In this document: one piece after another, positions 53,450-58,869 of the stretch
Layout of the letters: each line of letters opens with the position of its first letter
How positions within the stretch are numbered: the first letter of the stretch is position 1
Source of the DNA: Alicyclobacillus sp.
Lineage (GTDB): Bacteria > Bacillota > Bacilli > Alicyclobacillales > Alicyclobacillaceae
DNA length: 64,000 bases
NCBI GenBank assembly: GCA_023511295.1
Contig: JAIMBT010000014.1
Location: forward strand, 1 to 64,000
Direction: 5' to 3'
The notes under the pieces: generated by a model
Databases searched by the model: none
What the model saw: only the letters and a program-made list of their open reading frames with translations
What the model was told of the DNA's origin: nothing
Position numbers and translations under genes: made by a program

Positions 53450-53476
53450 CAAAAAGGCCAGCCGGAGCGGCTGGCC
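53450..53476 (-). terminator. Terminator of the sigma-like locus
   Basis: GGCCAGCCG and CGGCTGGCC form a perfect 9-bp stem with a GAG/CTC loop. On the minus strand five T residues follow. It lies 40 bases after the last small gene of the locus. Confidence 0.8.
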
Positions 53477-53513
53477 GCGATGAACCACCGTAACCGATTC
53501 GCGCGATTCGACG

Positions 53514-53693
53514 TCAGTCGAGGTGCAGCCCCGTCTCGCGCACGGCGTGCTCCCAGCTGGGGTAGTAGTAGAGGGCGTTTTTGAACAGCTCGGGATTGGC
53601 CTCCTTCACCTTGCGCTTCGAGAGTGGACCGCCTTGTTCGCCAAGTTCCTTGATTCTGGTGATGACCTCAGCTGCGCTCATGTCTGGCCGCAT
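53514..53693 (-). CDS. Small 59-residue protein, possibly nucleic-acid binding
   Basis: ATG at 53693 follows GGGGAG at 9-base spacing. The product is charged and helical (VITRIKELGEQGGPLSKRKVKEANP), followed by ELFKNALYYYPSWEHAVRETGL. The closing pattern (aromatic, S-W-x-x-A, then G-L) resembles a small repeated domain I recall in homing-endonuclease and HTH-type proteins. It is the last gene before the terminator and lies 100 bases after the sigma-like gene. Confidence 0.6.
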   Translation of the reverse strand: MRPDMSAAEVITRIKELGEQGGPLSKRKVKEANPELFKNALYYYPSWEHAVRETGLHLD

Positions 53694-53790
53694 CGAGATT
53701 CACTCCCCATGGAGAAGATTGGCTTACACTCCCAGTCTCCCCCATCGCCTTGTCGATTAGACACATCCGACAGCGGGTGACGGCCGCACG

Positions 53791-54207
53791 TCACTGGACG
53801 CACCCGACGGCGTCCATGTATCGGCGTAGTTTCTTCAGCGCCCTCGCCTTGAGGCGGCCGATGGACTGCTGTGAGATGTGAAAGTCCGTGGCGACCGTCT
53901 GCTCCGACAACCCGCGAATCACGGTGGCCAGAATGACATCTCGCTGCTTCTCGGTCAGGACGCTGAGCATCTGTTCGAGAAACAGCTGCGCTTCCGCTTG
54001 CGCTGCAGTATCGGATGAAGAGGCGGTCAGCAGATGCAGTCGGCTGCCACCATCCTCCGGGAGCGGATCATCCAAAATCAGCAGCTCGTGCGCGTACACG
54101 CTGCTGCGTTTCCTCGCGAGCCGCGCACTCTCCTGACGAACGACGCATGCCAGCCAAGCTGTGATTTGCGCATCGGATGAATCCGCGCAAGCAGTCAATG
54201 ACCCCAT
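53791..54207 (-). CDS. Sigma-70 region 4-like protein (SigO-like, lacks region 2)
   Basis: The 138-residue protein carries a C-terminal sigma region 4 helix-turn-helix (LTEKQRDVILATVIRGLSEQTVATDF, then SQQSIGRLKARALKKLRRY). The N-terminal part is a short helical segment (ITAWLACVVRQESARLARKRSS) with no region 2. B. subtilis SigO and Tn916 Orf7 have a similar layout and work, or are thought to work, with a separate small region-2-like protein. Such a protein is found at 54735-54980. The ATG at 54207 directly abuts AAGGGGG; TTG at 54198 is an alternative start with better spacing. Confidence 0.7.
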   Translation of the reverse strand: MGSLTACADSSDAQITAWLACVVRQESARLARKRSSVYAHELLILDDPLPEDGGSRLHLLTASSSDTAAQAEAQLFLEQMLSVLTEKQRDVILATVIRGLSEQTVATDFHISQQSIGRLKARALKKLRRYMDAVGCVQ

Positions 54208-54253
54208 CCCCCTTCAATCGTTGATTCCTCGGCCCAGCTCGCGACCTGCACGG

Positions 54254-54544
54254 CTAGGGCCGTAGGTCAAACGGGTCCTTCGCCCAACCGATCTGCACGG
54301 ACACCAGGTACCCATGGGCGCGGAGTGTGGCTTGTGCAAACATCACCATGTTCTCGAAAGGATAGCTGTCCAAAGTCGGCTGTGGCGGAGCGACCGGAGA
54401 GCCCCACGCAGTCCCGGCGGCTTCCATGGAACTGGAGGCTTCGTCTGCAGTCGCTGTTGCCGGGGCTGTCGAAAGAGACGCGGCGCCGAACGAGGCGATG
54501 AACGTACAGATGACGATGCCGAGAAACCGATAGAGCGCCTTCAT
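54254..54544 (-). CDS. Small secreted or membrane-anchored protein, unknown
   Basis: The 96-residue product starts at ATG 54544 (GGGAGGAG upstream) with a signal-like helix (FLGIVICTFIASFGAASL). A short extracytoplasmic part follows, with Ala/Thr/Ser-rich and Pro-rich linkers and a NMVMFAQATLRAHGYLVSVQIGW segment. It lies between the two sigma-like genes. It could be a target, an envelope sensor or an anti-sigma partner. No family recognised. Confidence 0.6.
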   Translation of the reverse strand: MKALYRFLGIVICTFIASFGAASLSTAPATATADEASSSMEAAGTAWGSPVAPPQPTLDSYPFENMVMFAQATLRAHGYLVSVQIGWAKDPFDLRP

Positions 54545-54683
54545 TTTGACTCCTCCCGTTCTGTGGATAGCGAGACGGACACCAGACCCAATGACCGTCC
54601 TTGCGGCAATCGAGAGACTCGTGCGTCCCAATCCAGCCAGCCCAGCGGCGCCTACCGCTCGCGGTTGCGCTCGTCTCACCACC

Positions 54684-54737
54684 CCCCTTACTGTATATAG
54701 AGTGAAAACAGGAGGGTTTTACACCCCCCTGTTTTCA
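54684..54737 (-). terminator. Hairpin at the end of the region-2-like sigma gene
   Basis: GTGAAAACAGG-A-GGG and CCC-C-CCTGTTTTCAC form a 15-bp stem with one mismatch (about 54700-54737), overlapping the stop codon of the upstream gene. Downstream on the minus strand is CTCTATATACAG, which may contain a promoter for the following genes. Confidence 0.5.
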
Positions 54738-54980
54738 CCGCTTGTTCCGGCGCGGGCGGTCACGACCCGCTCGCCGCAGTTCATCCACCCCCCACGTGGT
54801 ATGGGGCCGATACCGCTTGATGGCTTCCGCCATCCGCAGAATCAAGGCCGCTTCATCGTCTGGGATACCGTGACCGTACTTCTTGATCAGCGGTCGGAAA
54901 CGATTGATGACCTGCAGGAGGGCGTCCTCGTCACCAGATTGGGCCCTCGCAATCAGGTCGCGCAACTTCGGCTCTGGCAC
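54735..54980 (-). CDS. Small sigma region 2-like protein (RsoA/HTH_16-like)
   Basis: The 81-residue product (GTG at 54980, AAAGGAG upstream) has the HTH_16 pattern: LRDLIARAQSGDEDALLQVINRFRPLIKKYG, then DEAALILRMAEAIKRY. B. subtilis RsoA, a co-sigma that supplies region 2 to SigO, and Tn916 Orf8 have this layout. It lies 30 bases after the terminator of a c-di-GMP-I type riboswitch, on the same strand, so its expression should depend on the ligand. Confidence 0.65.
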   Translation of the reverse strand: MPEPKLRDLIARAQSGDEDALLQVINRFRPLIKKYGHGIPDDEAALILRMAEAIKRYRPHTTWGVDELRRAGRDRPRRNKR

Positions 54981-55015
54981 GCGGGCCGCTCCTTTCCCGT
55001 TCCATGCAATAAAAA

Positions 55016-55034
55016 AACTGGCATGCCGCCAGTT
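55016..55034 (-). terminator. Riboswitch-linked intrinsic terminator
   Basis: AACTGGC and GCCAGTT form a 7-bp stem with a GGCAT loop, followed on the minus strand by seven T residues. The 5' arm can instead pair with the 3' end of the aptamer. Confidence 0.75.
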
Positions 55035-55040
55035 GCAAGG

Positions 55041-55130
55041 TCAAACTCGGTGCAACCTGGCAAGCATAGCGCGAAGCGCCGTAGCCCCATGGCTTTGCGT
55101 CCCCGGCTTTCGCCGGGTTTGCCCATTTGT
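55041..55130 (-). ncRNA. c-di-GMP-I (GEMM) riboswitch
   Basis: The minus strand carries the hallmark blocks of the class in order: GGGCAAACC, a CCGGC-GAAA-GCCGG tetraloop stem, GGGACGCAAAGCCA, GGGGCTA, a variable second stem, and TTGCCAGGTTGCACCG. The GAAA tetraloop and its receptor side are present. A terminator follows. CCAGGTTGCA in the aptamer (55051-55060) can pair with TGCAACTGG (55029-55037), which contains the 5' arm of that terminator. Ligand binding should thus favour termination (an OFF switch). The gene controlled is the region-2-like sigma protein. Confidence 0.88.
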
Positions 55131-55224
55131 CGTTGTCGCTTCTCAGACACGAACCCGTGGGTTTCCGTACGTCAGGTATTCGCCGCGCGCACGGAATCTC
55201 CTTGCTCGTTTTGCCCAATCTCGT

Positions 55225-55782
55225 TCAGTCGACGTCGAGCTTGGACCGCCGGCCCTTGCGGTCGATGCGCATCCAAGCGGACACCACAGCGAGCGTGATG
55301 AGGACGGACACAATCGCCTCCGGCAACCCGTTCGCGACCGCCGTCACCAACGCGGGCCCAAAGGCCAAGTAGCCGCGCAACACCGCCATGCCGAGGACGA
55401 GGATGGTGTTCGTGGCTGACCCCATGAACCCGGCAACCCCGATGGCAGCGTACACGTTCCATCGGCGGATGCCGACGAACACCAACCATGAGACAATCCC
55501 GATGAACAGGCGCGGCAGCACAGACACGAGCGGATCTTTGAAAAACGGGACGTCCGCGCCGACAAACGACGAAAGTCCGAAGATGAAGCCAATCACCGTG
55601 CCGACGGGCCAGCCTTCCATGATGGAACCGATAATGACCGGGATGTGCATGATGGTCGCGTTGCCCGCGGGCGTTGGGACAGGGATATAGCCCCAGCGCG
55701 TGAAGCCGAGCAGGATGGCGATGGCACTCAACACGCCGGCGACGACGATGCGCCGGACGGTGAAGCCGATTTGCTTCTCCAC
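55225..55782 (-). CDS. ECF transporter S component (ECF_trnsprt family)
   Basis: The 185-residue membrane protein has about five to six helices. The family features are a short N-terminal segment, IAILLGFTRWGYIPVPTPAGNA, MHIPVIIGSIMEG, a GFIFGLSSFVGADVP loop and LPRLFIGIVSWLVF. It binds a vitamin-like substrate for the EcfAAT module encoded upstream. Folate and pantothenate are known for related members, but the substrate cannot be assigned. The 184-bp gap before it (55783-55966) is GC-rich and may hold an unrecognised leader. Confidence 0.82.
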   Translation of the reverse strand: MEKQIGFTVRRIVVAGVLSAIAILLGFTRWGYIPVPTPAGNATIMHIPVIIGSIMEGWPVGTVIGFIFGLSSFVGADVPFFKDPLVSVLPRLFIGIVSWLVFVGIRRWNVYAAIGVAGFMGSATNTILVLGMAVLRGYLAFGPALVTAVANGLPEAIVSVLITLAVVSAWMRIDRKGRRSKLDVD

Positions 55783-55966
55783 ATCAATCCCCCCCTATGG
55801 CGGAAGTGCTTTCAGACATGCCGCGCGCCGTTGCACCGGGGCGGCATTCCGGTAGACAGAACGCGGGTACGCGGGGGACCCGGAACGCCCAGGCCAGATC
55901 TTACCCGAATCCCGCCGGTTGCGCGACCCCCTGCGGCTCACCCTCAGCCTGGCCCGCCAACCGCCC

Positions 55967-56812
55967 CTAGAACGGAAACGGGGCGAAGACGAGTGCGGCC
56001 GACAGCGCCATCCCGGCCAAGAACATGACGATATCGCGCCCCCCCGCACGGTAGCGACGGTACGCGGTCCGCGCCTGGCCTGGAACGTAGCCGCGCGCCT
56101 CCATGGCGAGCGCCAACTCCTCCGCCCGCACCAACGCGGTGTTGAAGAGTGGGATGATGAGCGGGAACACGTCCCGCGTCCGGCGCGCGATGTTCCACCA
56201 GCTGCCGGTGCCAAACTCCGCCCCCCGCGACGCCTGTGCCTTCATCATTTTCTCCATCTCCATCGCGAAGGTGGGGACGAAGCGGACCGCAATCGTCACA
56301 ATCAAGGCGAAGGCGTGGACCGGCACTTTCATCCGCCCCAGCGGCCGCAGCAGACCTTCCACCCCGTGGGTCAACTCCGTGATGGATGTGGAGAGCGTCA
56401 GCACGCTGACGGCGAAGATGATCTCGACGAACCGTAAGGTGGATACGACAACGACGCGGACGCTGGCGCTGGTGATGCGGAGGATGCCCCAGTGAAAGTA
56501 GACCTGCCCGCTCGGACCATACCCATTCCCGTAAAACAGCAACTGTAAGATGGCGAGAATCAGGATGAACGGGATGGCGGGCTTGAGCCCCGACAACCCG
56601 TAGGAGAGCGGAATCCGGGCCAGGGCAAAGAGGGCCAGACAGACGCACAGCCCCGCGACGTTGCCGAGGTAGGTGTGACACAGCGAGATGGAGAGAATCC
56701 ACAGCGCCGCTGCCAACAGCTTCAGACGGGGGTCCATTCGGTGGATGACGGACCCGGTCGGAAGATACTGACCGATGGTGATGTTGCGCGTCAACTCGAA
56801 GTCACCGGCCAT
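55967..56812 (-). CDS. ecfT: ECF transporter T component
   Basis: The 281-residue protein has N-terminal membrane helices, the SVIHRMDPRLKLLAA entry motif, and two coupling-helix motifs in the C-terminal half (MKAQASRGAEFG and AMEARGYVPG), which dock onto EcfA1 and EcfA2. ATG at 56812 has AGGGGGG upstream and lies within the end of ecfA2 (11-base overlap). Confidence 0.93.
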   Translation of the reverse strand: MAGDFELTRNITIGQYLPTGSVIHRMDPRLKLLAAALWILSISLCHTYLGNVAGLCVCLALFALARIPLSYGLSGLKPAIPFILILAILQLLFYGNGYGPSGQVYFHWGILRITSASVRVVVVSTLRFVEIIFAVSVLTLSTSITELTHGVEGLLRPLGRMKVPVHAFALIVTIAVRFVPTFAMEMEKMMKAQASRGAEFGTGSWWNIARRTRDVFPLIIPLFNTALVRAEELALAMEARGYVPGQARTAYRRYRAGGRDIVMFLAGMALSAALVFAPFPF

Positions 56813-57821
56813 GCGCGTCCCCCCTGTCTTCCGCATGGGCATGCGGATGCCGCCCGTCCGGCTCGCGCCGATGAGCAGGCCCTTCCCAGGCTGTGGGCGG
56901 TGCCGACAGGTCCCCGGACGGTGGCTCGGCCGCGGCCGCAGGTCCTCGTTGCCCGGATGCGGCGGCGGCGACCTCCTCGGCGACTTCCGGCACGGTGAAC
57001 CGAGTCGTGTCGACGTGGTATCCACGGCTGTGGAGCGCGCGCAAGATCTCGACCCCTGGCGGCGCGCCAACCTGCAAGTCTGGGCGTTCGTCCAATGCAC
57101 CGAACAGCTCGCGCGGCGTCCCGTGGAAGGCGATGTGCCCGGCCGCGAGGACGTAGACCGTATCCGCGAGGTACGCCACTTCCTCCATGTTGTGGGACAC
57201 GAATACGACGGTCAGGCCCTCAGACCGGTTGAGATCTCGGATGCGGCGGAGCAGGTCTCGGCGCGATCTCGGGTCCAGCCCCGCGGTCGGCTCGTCCAAT
57301 ACCAAGATCTGCGGACGCAGGACGAGTACCCCAGCGAGCGCCACCTTGCGCTTCTCGCCGCCGCTCATGGCGAACGTGCTGCGGTTTTTCATCTCGTCGA
57401 AGTCGAGTCCCACCACGCCCATCGCCCACTTCGCGCGCTGGACGACCTCGGAGAGCGGGATCCCTTGCTTGAGTGGACCGTACGCGATGTCGTCCCCCAC
57501 CAAGCGCTCGAAGATCTGGTCCTCCGGGTTTTGAAACACCAGTCCCACCTGCTGGCGAATGGCGCGGATATCCACCTGTGGGTTGGACAACCGCGCGCCG
57601 TTCACGACGACCTCCCCCATCTGCGGCCGCAACAATCCGTTGAAGTGTTGAATCAACGTCGACTTCCCGGACCCCGTGTGGCCGATGATGGCCACACAGC
57701 TCCCCGCCGGGATGACCAGATTGACACCGAAGAGGGCCGGCTGCGCGAGCGGCGTACCCTGCAAATAGGTGTGGTGGAGGTTGGAGACGGTCAGAATGTC
57801 GCCGCGGTTTGATTCACCCAT
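56802..57821 (-). CDS. ecfA2: ECF transporter ATPase A2 (longer C terminus)
   Basis: The 339-residue ATPase has Walker A GHTGSGKST, Q-loop FQNPEDQIF, signature MSGGEKRKVALAG and Walker B ILVLDEPTAGLD. An unusually long C-terminal tail, Ala/Pro/His-rich (about 50 residues), extends past the normal end. ATG at 57821 overlaps ecfA1 by 8 bases. Confidence 0.93.
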   Translation of the reverse strand: MGESNRGDILTVSNLHHTYLQGTPLAQPALFGVNLVIPAGSCVAIIGHTGSGKSTLIQHFNGLLRPQMGEVVVNGARLSNPQVDIRAIRQQVGLVFQNPEDQIFERLVGDDIAYGPLKQGIPLSEVVQRAKWAMGVVGLDFDEMKNRSTFAMSGGEKRKVALAGVLVLRPQILVLDEPTAGLDPRSRRDLLRRIRDLNRSEGLTVVFVSHNMEEVAYLADTVYVLAAGHIAFHGTPRELFGALDERPDLQVGAPPGVEILRALHSRGYHVDTTRFTVPEVAEEVAAAASGQRGPAAAAEPPSGDLSAPPTAWEGPAHRREPDGRHPHAHAEDRGDAHGR

Positions 57822-58677
57822 GCCGACGCTCCCCTCCTGAGCCTGCCAGCCTGTCCACCTCGGCGACGACCTCCTCCACCGAGATGGCGTCCCTCCGAAA
57901 CGCGGGAATGCGCGCGTGCACTTGCTGAGCCACCCGACTGGCCTCCGGCACGTCCAACCCGAGTGCTTCGAGCTGGTCCGGATGTGCAAACAGTTCGCGC
58001 GGCGTCCCCTCAAGCGCCACCCGTCCTTCGTGCATCACCAACACCCGGTCGGCCTCCGCCACCTCGGACATGTGGTGAGTGATGGTGACGATGGCCATCC
58101 CCTGTTGGTTGAGCCGACGCACCACCGCGAGGATCTCTGCCCGCCCGAAGCTGTCGAGCATGCTCGTCGCCTCATCGAGCACCAGGCAGTCGGGCCGCAT
58201 CGCGAGGATGCCCGCAATCGCCACGCGCTGCTTCTGGCCCCCGGAGAGGAAGTGCGGCGGCCGATGTCGGTACTCGGACATCCCGACCGCTTCCAGCGCT
58301 TCGTCAATCCGCTCCTGCATCTCCCCCGGCGGCACACCGAGGTTTTCCAGACCGAACGCCACGTCGTCCTCGACGATGGTGGCGACAAGCTGGTTGTCCG
58401 GCGACTGGAACACCATCCCGACGCAGCGCCGAATCTGTTGCTTGCACGACGCATCTTTCGTGTTCATTCCCGCCACCCAAACGTCGCCCCGCGTCGGCGT
58501 CAGAATGCCGTTCAGGTGCTTGGCGAGTGTGGATTTACCCGATCCGTTCTGTCCGATGACAGCCACGTACTCTCCGGGGTACACCCGCAGGGACACGTCC
58601 GTAAAGGCCGCCACAGACTGCGACGGCCCTTGCCCATACGAAAAGGAGATCTGATTGACCTCAATCAGCGGTTTCAT
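57814..58677 (-). CDS. ecfA1: ECF transporter ATPase A1
   Basis: The 287-residue ATPase has Walker A GQNGSGKST, Q-loop FQSPDNQLVA, signature LSGGQKQRVAIAG and Walker B CLVLDEATSMLD. It is the first gene of the ecfA1-A2-T-S operon. ATG at 58677 has AAGGGG upstream. Confidence 0.93.
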   Translation of the reverse strand: MKPLIEVNQISFSYGQGPSQSVAAFTDVSLRVYPGEYVAVIGQNGSGKSTLAKHLNGILTPTRGDVWVAGMNTKDASCKQQIRRCVGMVFQSPDNQLVATIVEDDVAFGLENLGVPPGEMQERIDEALEAVGMSEYRHRPPHFLSGGQKQRVAIAGILAMRPDCLVLDEATSMLDSFGRAEILAVVRRLNQQGMAIVTITHHMSEVAEADRVLVMHEGRVALEGTPRELFAHPDQLEALGLDVPEASRVAQQVHARIPAFRRDAISVEEVVAEVDRLAGSGGERRHG

Positions 58678-58869
58678 GCTCGACCCCTTCGCGACGCAGG
58701 AGTGGATGCGCCGGCCCTCGGCCGGCCACTCGCCATTGGCGTTGCCCGCGGCCCCAGCGGTCGCCGGCGACGTTGCACCGGCGACGACCGTTCGCATGCG
58801 GGTCTATTGTACAATTTCGGAGCCACTCCGCCAAACCGAGGACAGGCGGGTGGGGGGTGCCGGGGGCGG

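Follow-up and report, generated by a model that had tools for sequence, protein, structure and literature searches.

The locus

In the window (the whole 64-kb stretch of DNA that was analysed), a riboswitch leader is followed by four small genes and a terminator. All elements of this unit lie on the minus strand, from 55133 to 53451, and the parts that an earlier note on this DNA had described are indeed present at that position. The features are as follows.

55048..55133, minus strand: c-di-GMP-I (GEMM-I) riboswitch aptamer (cmscan against RF01051, 77.7 bits, full length 1-87)
55051..55060, minus strand: 3' strand of the aptamer, CCAGGTTGCA, which also serves as the 5' strand of the antiterminator (pairs with 55029-55037 in the free leader)
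55029..55037, minus strand: 3' strand of the antiterminator, TGCAACTGG, sharing positions with the terminator 5' arm (leader folding)
55009..55034, minus strand: intrinsic terminator, AACTGGCGGCATGCCAGTT plus T run, also delimited as 55034-55016 (terminator analysis and folding)
54735..54980, minus strand: gene 1, predicted sigma region 2-like co-sigma (HTH_16) of 81 aa, GTG start (Pfam, AF2)
54684..54738, minus strand: dedicated promoter-like element with inverted repeat (matrix built from outside sites, hairpin z)
54254..54544, minus strand: gene 2, predicted secreted protein of 96 aa, no family (ORF, ribosome site GGGAGGAG, signal peptide by eye)
53791..54207, minus strand: gene 3, putative sigma partner of 138 aa, long N-terminal helix plus region 4 (Sigma70_r4_2, TIGR02937, AF2/Foldseek)
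53514..53693, minus strand: gene 4, basic protein of 59 aa, no family (ORF only)
53451..53476, minus strand: end-of-unit terminator, 9-pair stem plus T run, also delimited as 53476-53456 (terminator analysis)

Gene 2 corresponds to the secreted protein that had been noted behind the region-2-like gene; its ribosome site is clear and its signal peptide was recognised by eye. It has no Pfam, PHROG or credible homologue, and two weak candidate homologues within the family were rejected because they are antisense to other reading frames. The small basic protein said to precede a terminator is gene 4. Neither gene 2 nor gene 4 matches a Pfam family, and no neighbour of the oxdC, yvrJ or yvrL type was recognised at this locus. 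Directly upstream on the same strand are ECF-type transporter genes (an S component, a T component and two ATPases, 55225-58797), one of which (55782-55225) ends about 90 nt before the riboswitch. Since no sigma-A promoter was found between these genes and the riboswitch, read-through from the transporter gene is possible.

The riboswitch leader

The aptamer, recognised in the earlier note as GEMM/c-di-GMP-I, matches the RF01051 covariance model over its full length, well above the curated cut-off (77.7 versus 35 bits, E=1.5e-13), and is the sole Rfam match in the 64-kb window. It is one of seven c-di-GMP-I aptamers in this genome. The probability that one of the seven would fall 400 nt or less upstream of a given gene is about 4e-4; by this figure, together with the recurrence of the arrangement in distant genomes (see below), a chance placement before gene 1 is excluded. 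The targets of the other six switches in the genome (L001 and L003-L007), as read from translations, are a Flp-type pilin with a TadE-like gene, a secreted protein with a histidine kinase, a DUF342-like protein, an EAL protein, a SinR-like regulator and a GGDEF protein; judged by these predicted products, the six are an ordinary c-di-GMP network.

The expression platform adjoins the aptamer and contains, as had been proposed, both a terminator and a competing antiterminator. Folding gives the free leader -48.7 kcal/mol with the antiterminator versus -45.3 kcal/mol with the aptamer plus terminator, and in the window the probability of the terminator rises from 0.09 in the free leader to 0.77 with the aptamer sequestered. 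A. macrosporangiidus and its congener retain this antiterminator pairing, and in them sequestering the aptamer raises the terminator probability from 0.08-0.29 to 0.96. Because the antiterminator captures the 3' strand of the aptamer, the leader is predicted to be a ligand OFF switch, terminating when c-di-GMP is bound; this direction agrees with the earlier suggestion that high c-di-GMP stops synthesis of the co-sigma. A terminator lies no more than 18 nt from the aptamer in 10/10 leaders examined. In the seven other leaders the simple folding calculation gives no clear switching, and at most other loci the terminator is preferred even in the free leader, so that the energetics do not demonstrate switching there; the window and A. 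macrosporangiidus with its congener are the only cases in which the OFF calculation comes out clearly.

A predicted sigma factor in two parts

The gene directly behind the riboswitch had been described as a region-2-like, HTH_16-like sigma gene, and gene 1 does match Pfam HTH_16 (26.8 bits, cut-off 22), with a match that spans only 28 residues. In a Foldseek search of the PDB with the AF2 model (mean pLDDT 80), the top 16 rows are all sigma factors, mostly region 2 domains, with E-values of about 0.3 and up; the model superimposes on ShbA over 58 residues at 2.2 A (Z 6.4). The predicted fold of gene 1 is thus that of sigma region 2, from E-values that are weak and a match list that is specific. 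In alignments with sigma models, proteins of the gene 1 type cover the initial part.

Gene 3, whose start codon may be a TTG 9 nt downstream, matches Sigma70_r4 and Sigma70_r4_2 (34.6 bits for the latter), so that the HTH_16 and sigma region 4 profiles against which the earlier note had proposed to compare the two proteins both score above their cut-offs. The AF2 model of gene 3 has region 4 plus a long N-terminal helix, and Foldseek identifies it as sigma region 4. Against the ECF sigma model TIGR02937, the gene 3 protein covers only positions 50-165 of 165 and is not a single-chain ECF sigma factor. This alignment places the break in the sigma factor within region 2 rather than at the boundary between regions 2 and 4. 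The partner had been called region-4-only; its region 4 stands, but the "only" is rejected, since gene 3 carries part of region 2 too.

Several observations bear on whether the two proteins belong to one sigma factor. Concatenating gene 1 and gene 3 leaves the ECF score essentially where it was (45.5 bits versus 45.4 bits for gene 3 alone), a neutral test; natural fusions are the better evidence. Close relatives of genes 1 and 3 share the same 4/41 family genomes and the same loci. The idea of one sigma factor in two parts is backed by synteny across distant groups and by natural fusions, both treated below, and the two proteins together would form a working sigma factor.

A probable dedicated promoter behind gene 1

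One element was absent from the earlier note's list, though it falls within the note's coordinates. Immediately after gene 1, an inverted repeat (54702-54738) carries a -35-like TGTAAAA (54717-54723) in its loop and is followed by CTCTATATACAGTAAGGGG at 54684-54702; the promoter blocks of the window are TGTAAAA and TATACAGTAAGGGG. In most loci a block GGGGGTTATTAAAA-n-CCCCCTATTTTCTCTTTATATAGTAGAGGG is found directly 3' of the gene for the region 2-like half (the sigma2 gene; its partner is the sigma4 gene), and a TNTNAAA loop plus a CTCTTTATATAGTAGAGGG block, at near-constant spacing, is conserved across distant groups. When the 64-kb window was scanned with a matrix built from sites outside Alicyclobacillaceae, the site starting at 54708 on the minus strand ranked first with 27.7 bits, and the next independent site scored 3.5. 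The genome itself contains a single copy of the strict core, and across 20 genomes the core falls mostly inside split-sigma loci; in one genome (G519) an extra copy outside the locus lies before a phage-type holin gene.

Together these features suggest that the sigma pair reads the promoter at 54684-54738, and that the riboswitch probably gates only the sigma2 half, with gene 2 and the sigma4 half on their own promoter. The earlier picture of a riboswitch over the locus holds for the sigma2 gene but probably not for the genes behind this conserved element. Similarly, the proposed second-messenger-controlled regulon keeps its control but looks local; a large regulon was rejected because the strict core is found once in the genome, although looser sites may exist. 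The inverted repeat forms a strong predicted hairpin (z -7.3 in the window) with T-rich sequence after it, and this hairpin around the -35 element may end the gene 1 transcript as well. Promoter-like sites are also present at two other Alicyclobacillaceae loci with sigma4-like genes (L014, ~1264, minus strand; L015, ~2086, plus strand), which have the same -10 block (TATATNNGTAGAGGG) and a different -35 (AATCAAAATCGA).

Occurrence in other genomes

The synteny survey that had been suggested found the aptamer and the split sigma together in two distant groups. Of 46 two-part loci, 23 have a same-strand c-di-GMP aptamer upstream of the sigma2 gene, either RF01051 or its variant RF03167 (c-di-GMP-I-GGC), and the 21 genomes concerned belong to Alicyclobacillaceae and to the phylum of Desulfotruncus, where the class and phylum were searched for two-part loci and the loci then scanned for aptamers. 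By comparison, an aptamer is present in 1/29 related sigma loci (sigma4-first or single-chain), and that one is a natural single-chain fusion (Fisher p 1e-5, related loci being counted apart and the p-value a guide only). A. macrosporangiidus and its congener have the riboswitch and terminator first, followed by the sigma2 gene, a membrane protein gene and the sigma4 gene; in Desulfotruncus arcticus, which by GTDB belongs to a phylum other than that of the window genome, the riboswitch is followed by sigma2 and then sigma4. (By their records, A. macrosporangiidus and A. suci correspond to genomes of the Alicyclobacillus family, that of the window genome.) Adjacency of sigma2 and sigma4 is conserved across loci, and identity to gene 1 falls as low as 30% among members, which argues that the linkage is not the result of recent copying.

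Half of the two-part loci, those of A. suci among them, have no c-di-GMP aptamer, and no sub-threshold c-di-GMP aptamer was detected in nine aptamer-less loci. In A. suci (L011 and L027), two tandem split-sigma pairs are found in opposite order (sigma2-first and sigma4-first), without a riboswitch and followed by a glutaredoxin-like gene. In four loci (L058, L061, L119, L146) the variant aptamer c-di-GMP-I-GGC takes the place of the normal one, making the split-sigma loci a possible gene association for the little-studied RF03167. No relative of gene 3 was seen in plasmid records. Serine recombinase genes lie near the riboswitch-bearing loci L152, L155, L162 and L163 (genomes G870, G640 and G807), and G807 has three copies of the module; given these recombinases and copies, the module is possibly mobile.

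The natural fusion under the same riboswitch (L135, genome G899, 1433-2115) aligns to TIGR02937 over positions 1-164 with 61.5 bits, and further single-chain relatives exist. The ATG of this fused sigma gene lies inside the c-di-GMP-I aptamer (CTATGACAGC), which suggests translational control, and a promoter of the same type follows the gene (TTTTATATAGTAGAGGGG).

Genes carried by related loci

In relatives, the genes beside or behind the promoter include Amidase_3 (150.7 bits), Hydrolase_2 and Rv2525c/GH25-like proteins, weak glucosaminidase-like and M15-like proteins, the holin families Holin_BhlA (60 bits) and Holin_LLH (48.5 bits, behind the out-of-locus site in G519), and a recurring membrane protein of ~105 aa that is weakly holin-like. 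This content suggests a cassette for lysis or holin-assisted release. The family module might accordingly be a phage- or element-derived cassette of holin and lysin, for lysis or protein release under c-di-GMP, of which the window copy would be a reduced or repurposed form with other cargo. Besides the hydrolases and holins, the serine recombinases near several loci speak for this reading; against it, the window unit has neither holin nor hydrolase (gene 2 stands in their place), the commonest membrane protein is holin-like only weakly, several cargoes belong to no known family, and a search of viral contigs with the single narrow profile used gave no two-part relative. We hold it tentatively, at slightly less than even odds. 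It concerns the output and is compatible with the split-sigma explanation.

Relation to known systems

The orf7 and orf8 genes of Tn916, named in the earlier note, may encode a similar pair of small regulators. In B. subtilis, SigO-RsoA (YvrI-YvrHa) is a two-subunit sigma factor with the targets oxdC-yvrL, yvrJ and yvrI-yvrHa (PMC8103513). As in that system, sigma region 4 and region 2 are on separate proteins here and the regulon would be small and self-directed. Unlike it, however, the window has the sigma2 gene first, under a c-di-GMP riboswitch, with a promoter and another gene before the sigma4 gene and no recognised oxdC/yvrJ/yvrL-type neighbour; the sigO-rsoA order, with sigma4 first, occurs in other families.

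A c-di-GMP riboswitch acting on a sigma factor has a precedent in C. difficile, in which sigD, within the flgB operon, is under a class I c-di-GMP OFF riboswitch that works by transcription termination (PMC6366702). The predicted switch in the window would lower a sigma factor in the same way; the C. difficile switch governs a complete sigma factor within a large flagellar operon, whereas in the window half of a split ECF-like sigma lies directly behind the leader and the unit has its own local promoter. TcdR/TcdE provides another comparison, with a dedicated sigma factor, local cargo and a holin-like protein (PMC5386303). Relatives of the window module share these traits and the single-chain relatives score weakly against the BotR model, but membership is below curated cut-offs, and factors of the TcdR/BotR type are single chains with no riboswitch directly on the sigma gene. 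Finally, c-di-GMP also acts on a sigma factor in WhiG-RsiG of Streptomyces (PDB 6pfj and 7lq4 are among the structure matches); there the control is at the protein level through an anti-sigma factor, while in the window it would be at the RNA level, on synthesis.

The earlier note had supposed that an RNA link from c-di-GMP to a two-part sigma factor was undescribed. With respect to half of a split sigma, riboswitch control appears to be new: the combination is unreported in the literature searched, in which subscription papers are thinly covered. What is already known is a c-di-GMP riboswitch over a whole sigma factor, that of sigD (PMC6366702).

Proposed mechanism and alternatives

The locus is best read as a c-di-GMP-gated, self-amplifying split-sigma module, to which we assign a probability of roughly 0.8. 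Sequence and computation establish the aptamer, the terminator, the two sigma parts, the conserved linkage and the conserved promoter-like block; we infer the direction of the ligand effect in vivo, the assembly of the pair, its use of the promoter, the feedback and the end of the gene 1 transcript before gene 2. The riboswitch would control gene 1, which supplies only the core-binding half of an ECF-like sigma factor, approximately regions 2.1-2.2. In the absence of c-di-GMP, the leader would form the antiterminator and gene 1 would be made; with c-di-GMP bound, the antiterminator strand would be held in the aptamer and transcription would stop. Together with the gene 3 protein, which supplies the rest of region 2 plus region 4, the gene 1 protein would give a working sigma factor able to read the dedicated promoter right after gene 1 and thus to express genes 2, 3 and 4. 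The partner would be abundant only once the pair works, providing feedback, and the hairpin that holds the -35 element would end the gene 1 transcript and so keep the two inputs apart.

There are rival readings of this scheme. The two proteins might not constitute one sigma factor: gene 1 could be a small adaptor or anti-sigma, and gene 3 could bind DNA as a regulator alongside a different sigma factor. Neither protein alone is a complete sigma, the function of HTH_16 is deduced and the interaction of the proteins is a prediction, all of which would fit such an arrangement; yet single-chain relatives carry both parts in order, one of them under the same riboswitch, gene 1 is predicted to fold as region 2, relatives of the two genes co-occur, and RsoA/SigO of B. 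subtilis provides a precedent (PMC8103513). We consider this alternative very unlikely. The sign of the switch might also be the reverse, such that high c-di-GMP favours the sigma pair, as c-di-GMP-I switches of both signs exist (PMC6366702) and the free leader of several relatives already favours the terminator. Because the antiterminator takes the 3' strand of the aptamer in the window and in A. macrosporangiidus, which is the OFF layout, an ON switch seems improbable.

It is about equally doubtful that the unit is an ordinary operon, with genes 1-4 on one transcript under the riboswitch and the element behind gene 1 serving as a hairpin for internal termination or processing. The four genes do share a strand up to the terminator, and the element is indeed a strong hairpin followed by T-rich sequence; a hairpin alone, however, needs no conserved TNTNAAA loop and CTCTTTATATAGTAGAGGG block across distant groups, nor would it account for the out-of-locus copy before the holin gene in G519.

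Significance of the split

To our knowledge, essentially a single two-part sigma factor has been worked out so far. The c-di-GMP-gated module proposed here would offer a reason for splitting a sigma factor: with one half under a second-messenger riboswitch and the other behind the pair's own promoter, splitting would give an AND gate with feedback. The module would give HTH_16 proteins a role, its conserved promoter allows its targets to be located by sequence, and it would tie c-di-GMP to local cargo that often resembles a lysis or release cassette. Low c-di-GMP would then yield the sigma half and switch on a self-amplifying circuit with nearly a single promoter; in many Bacillota the outcome, a holin-like protein plus peptidoglycan hydrolases, could perhaps be a decision for lysis or release, a widespread c-di-GMP output not yet described, of which the Alicyclobacillus window would be a secreted-protein variant; to this reading of the output we give slightly less than even odds.
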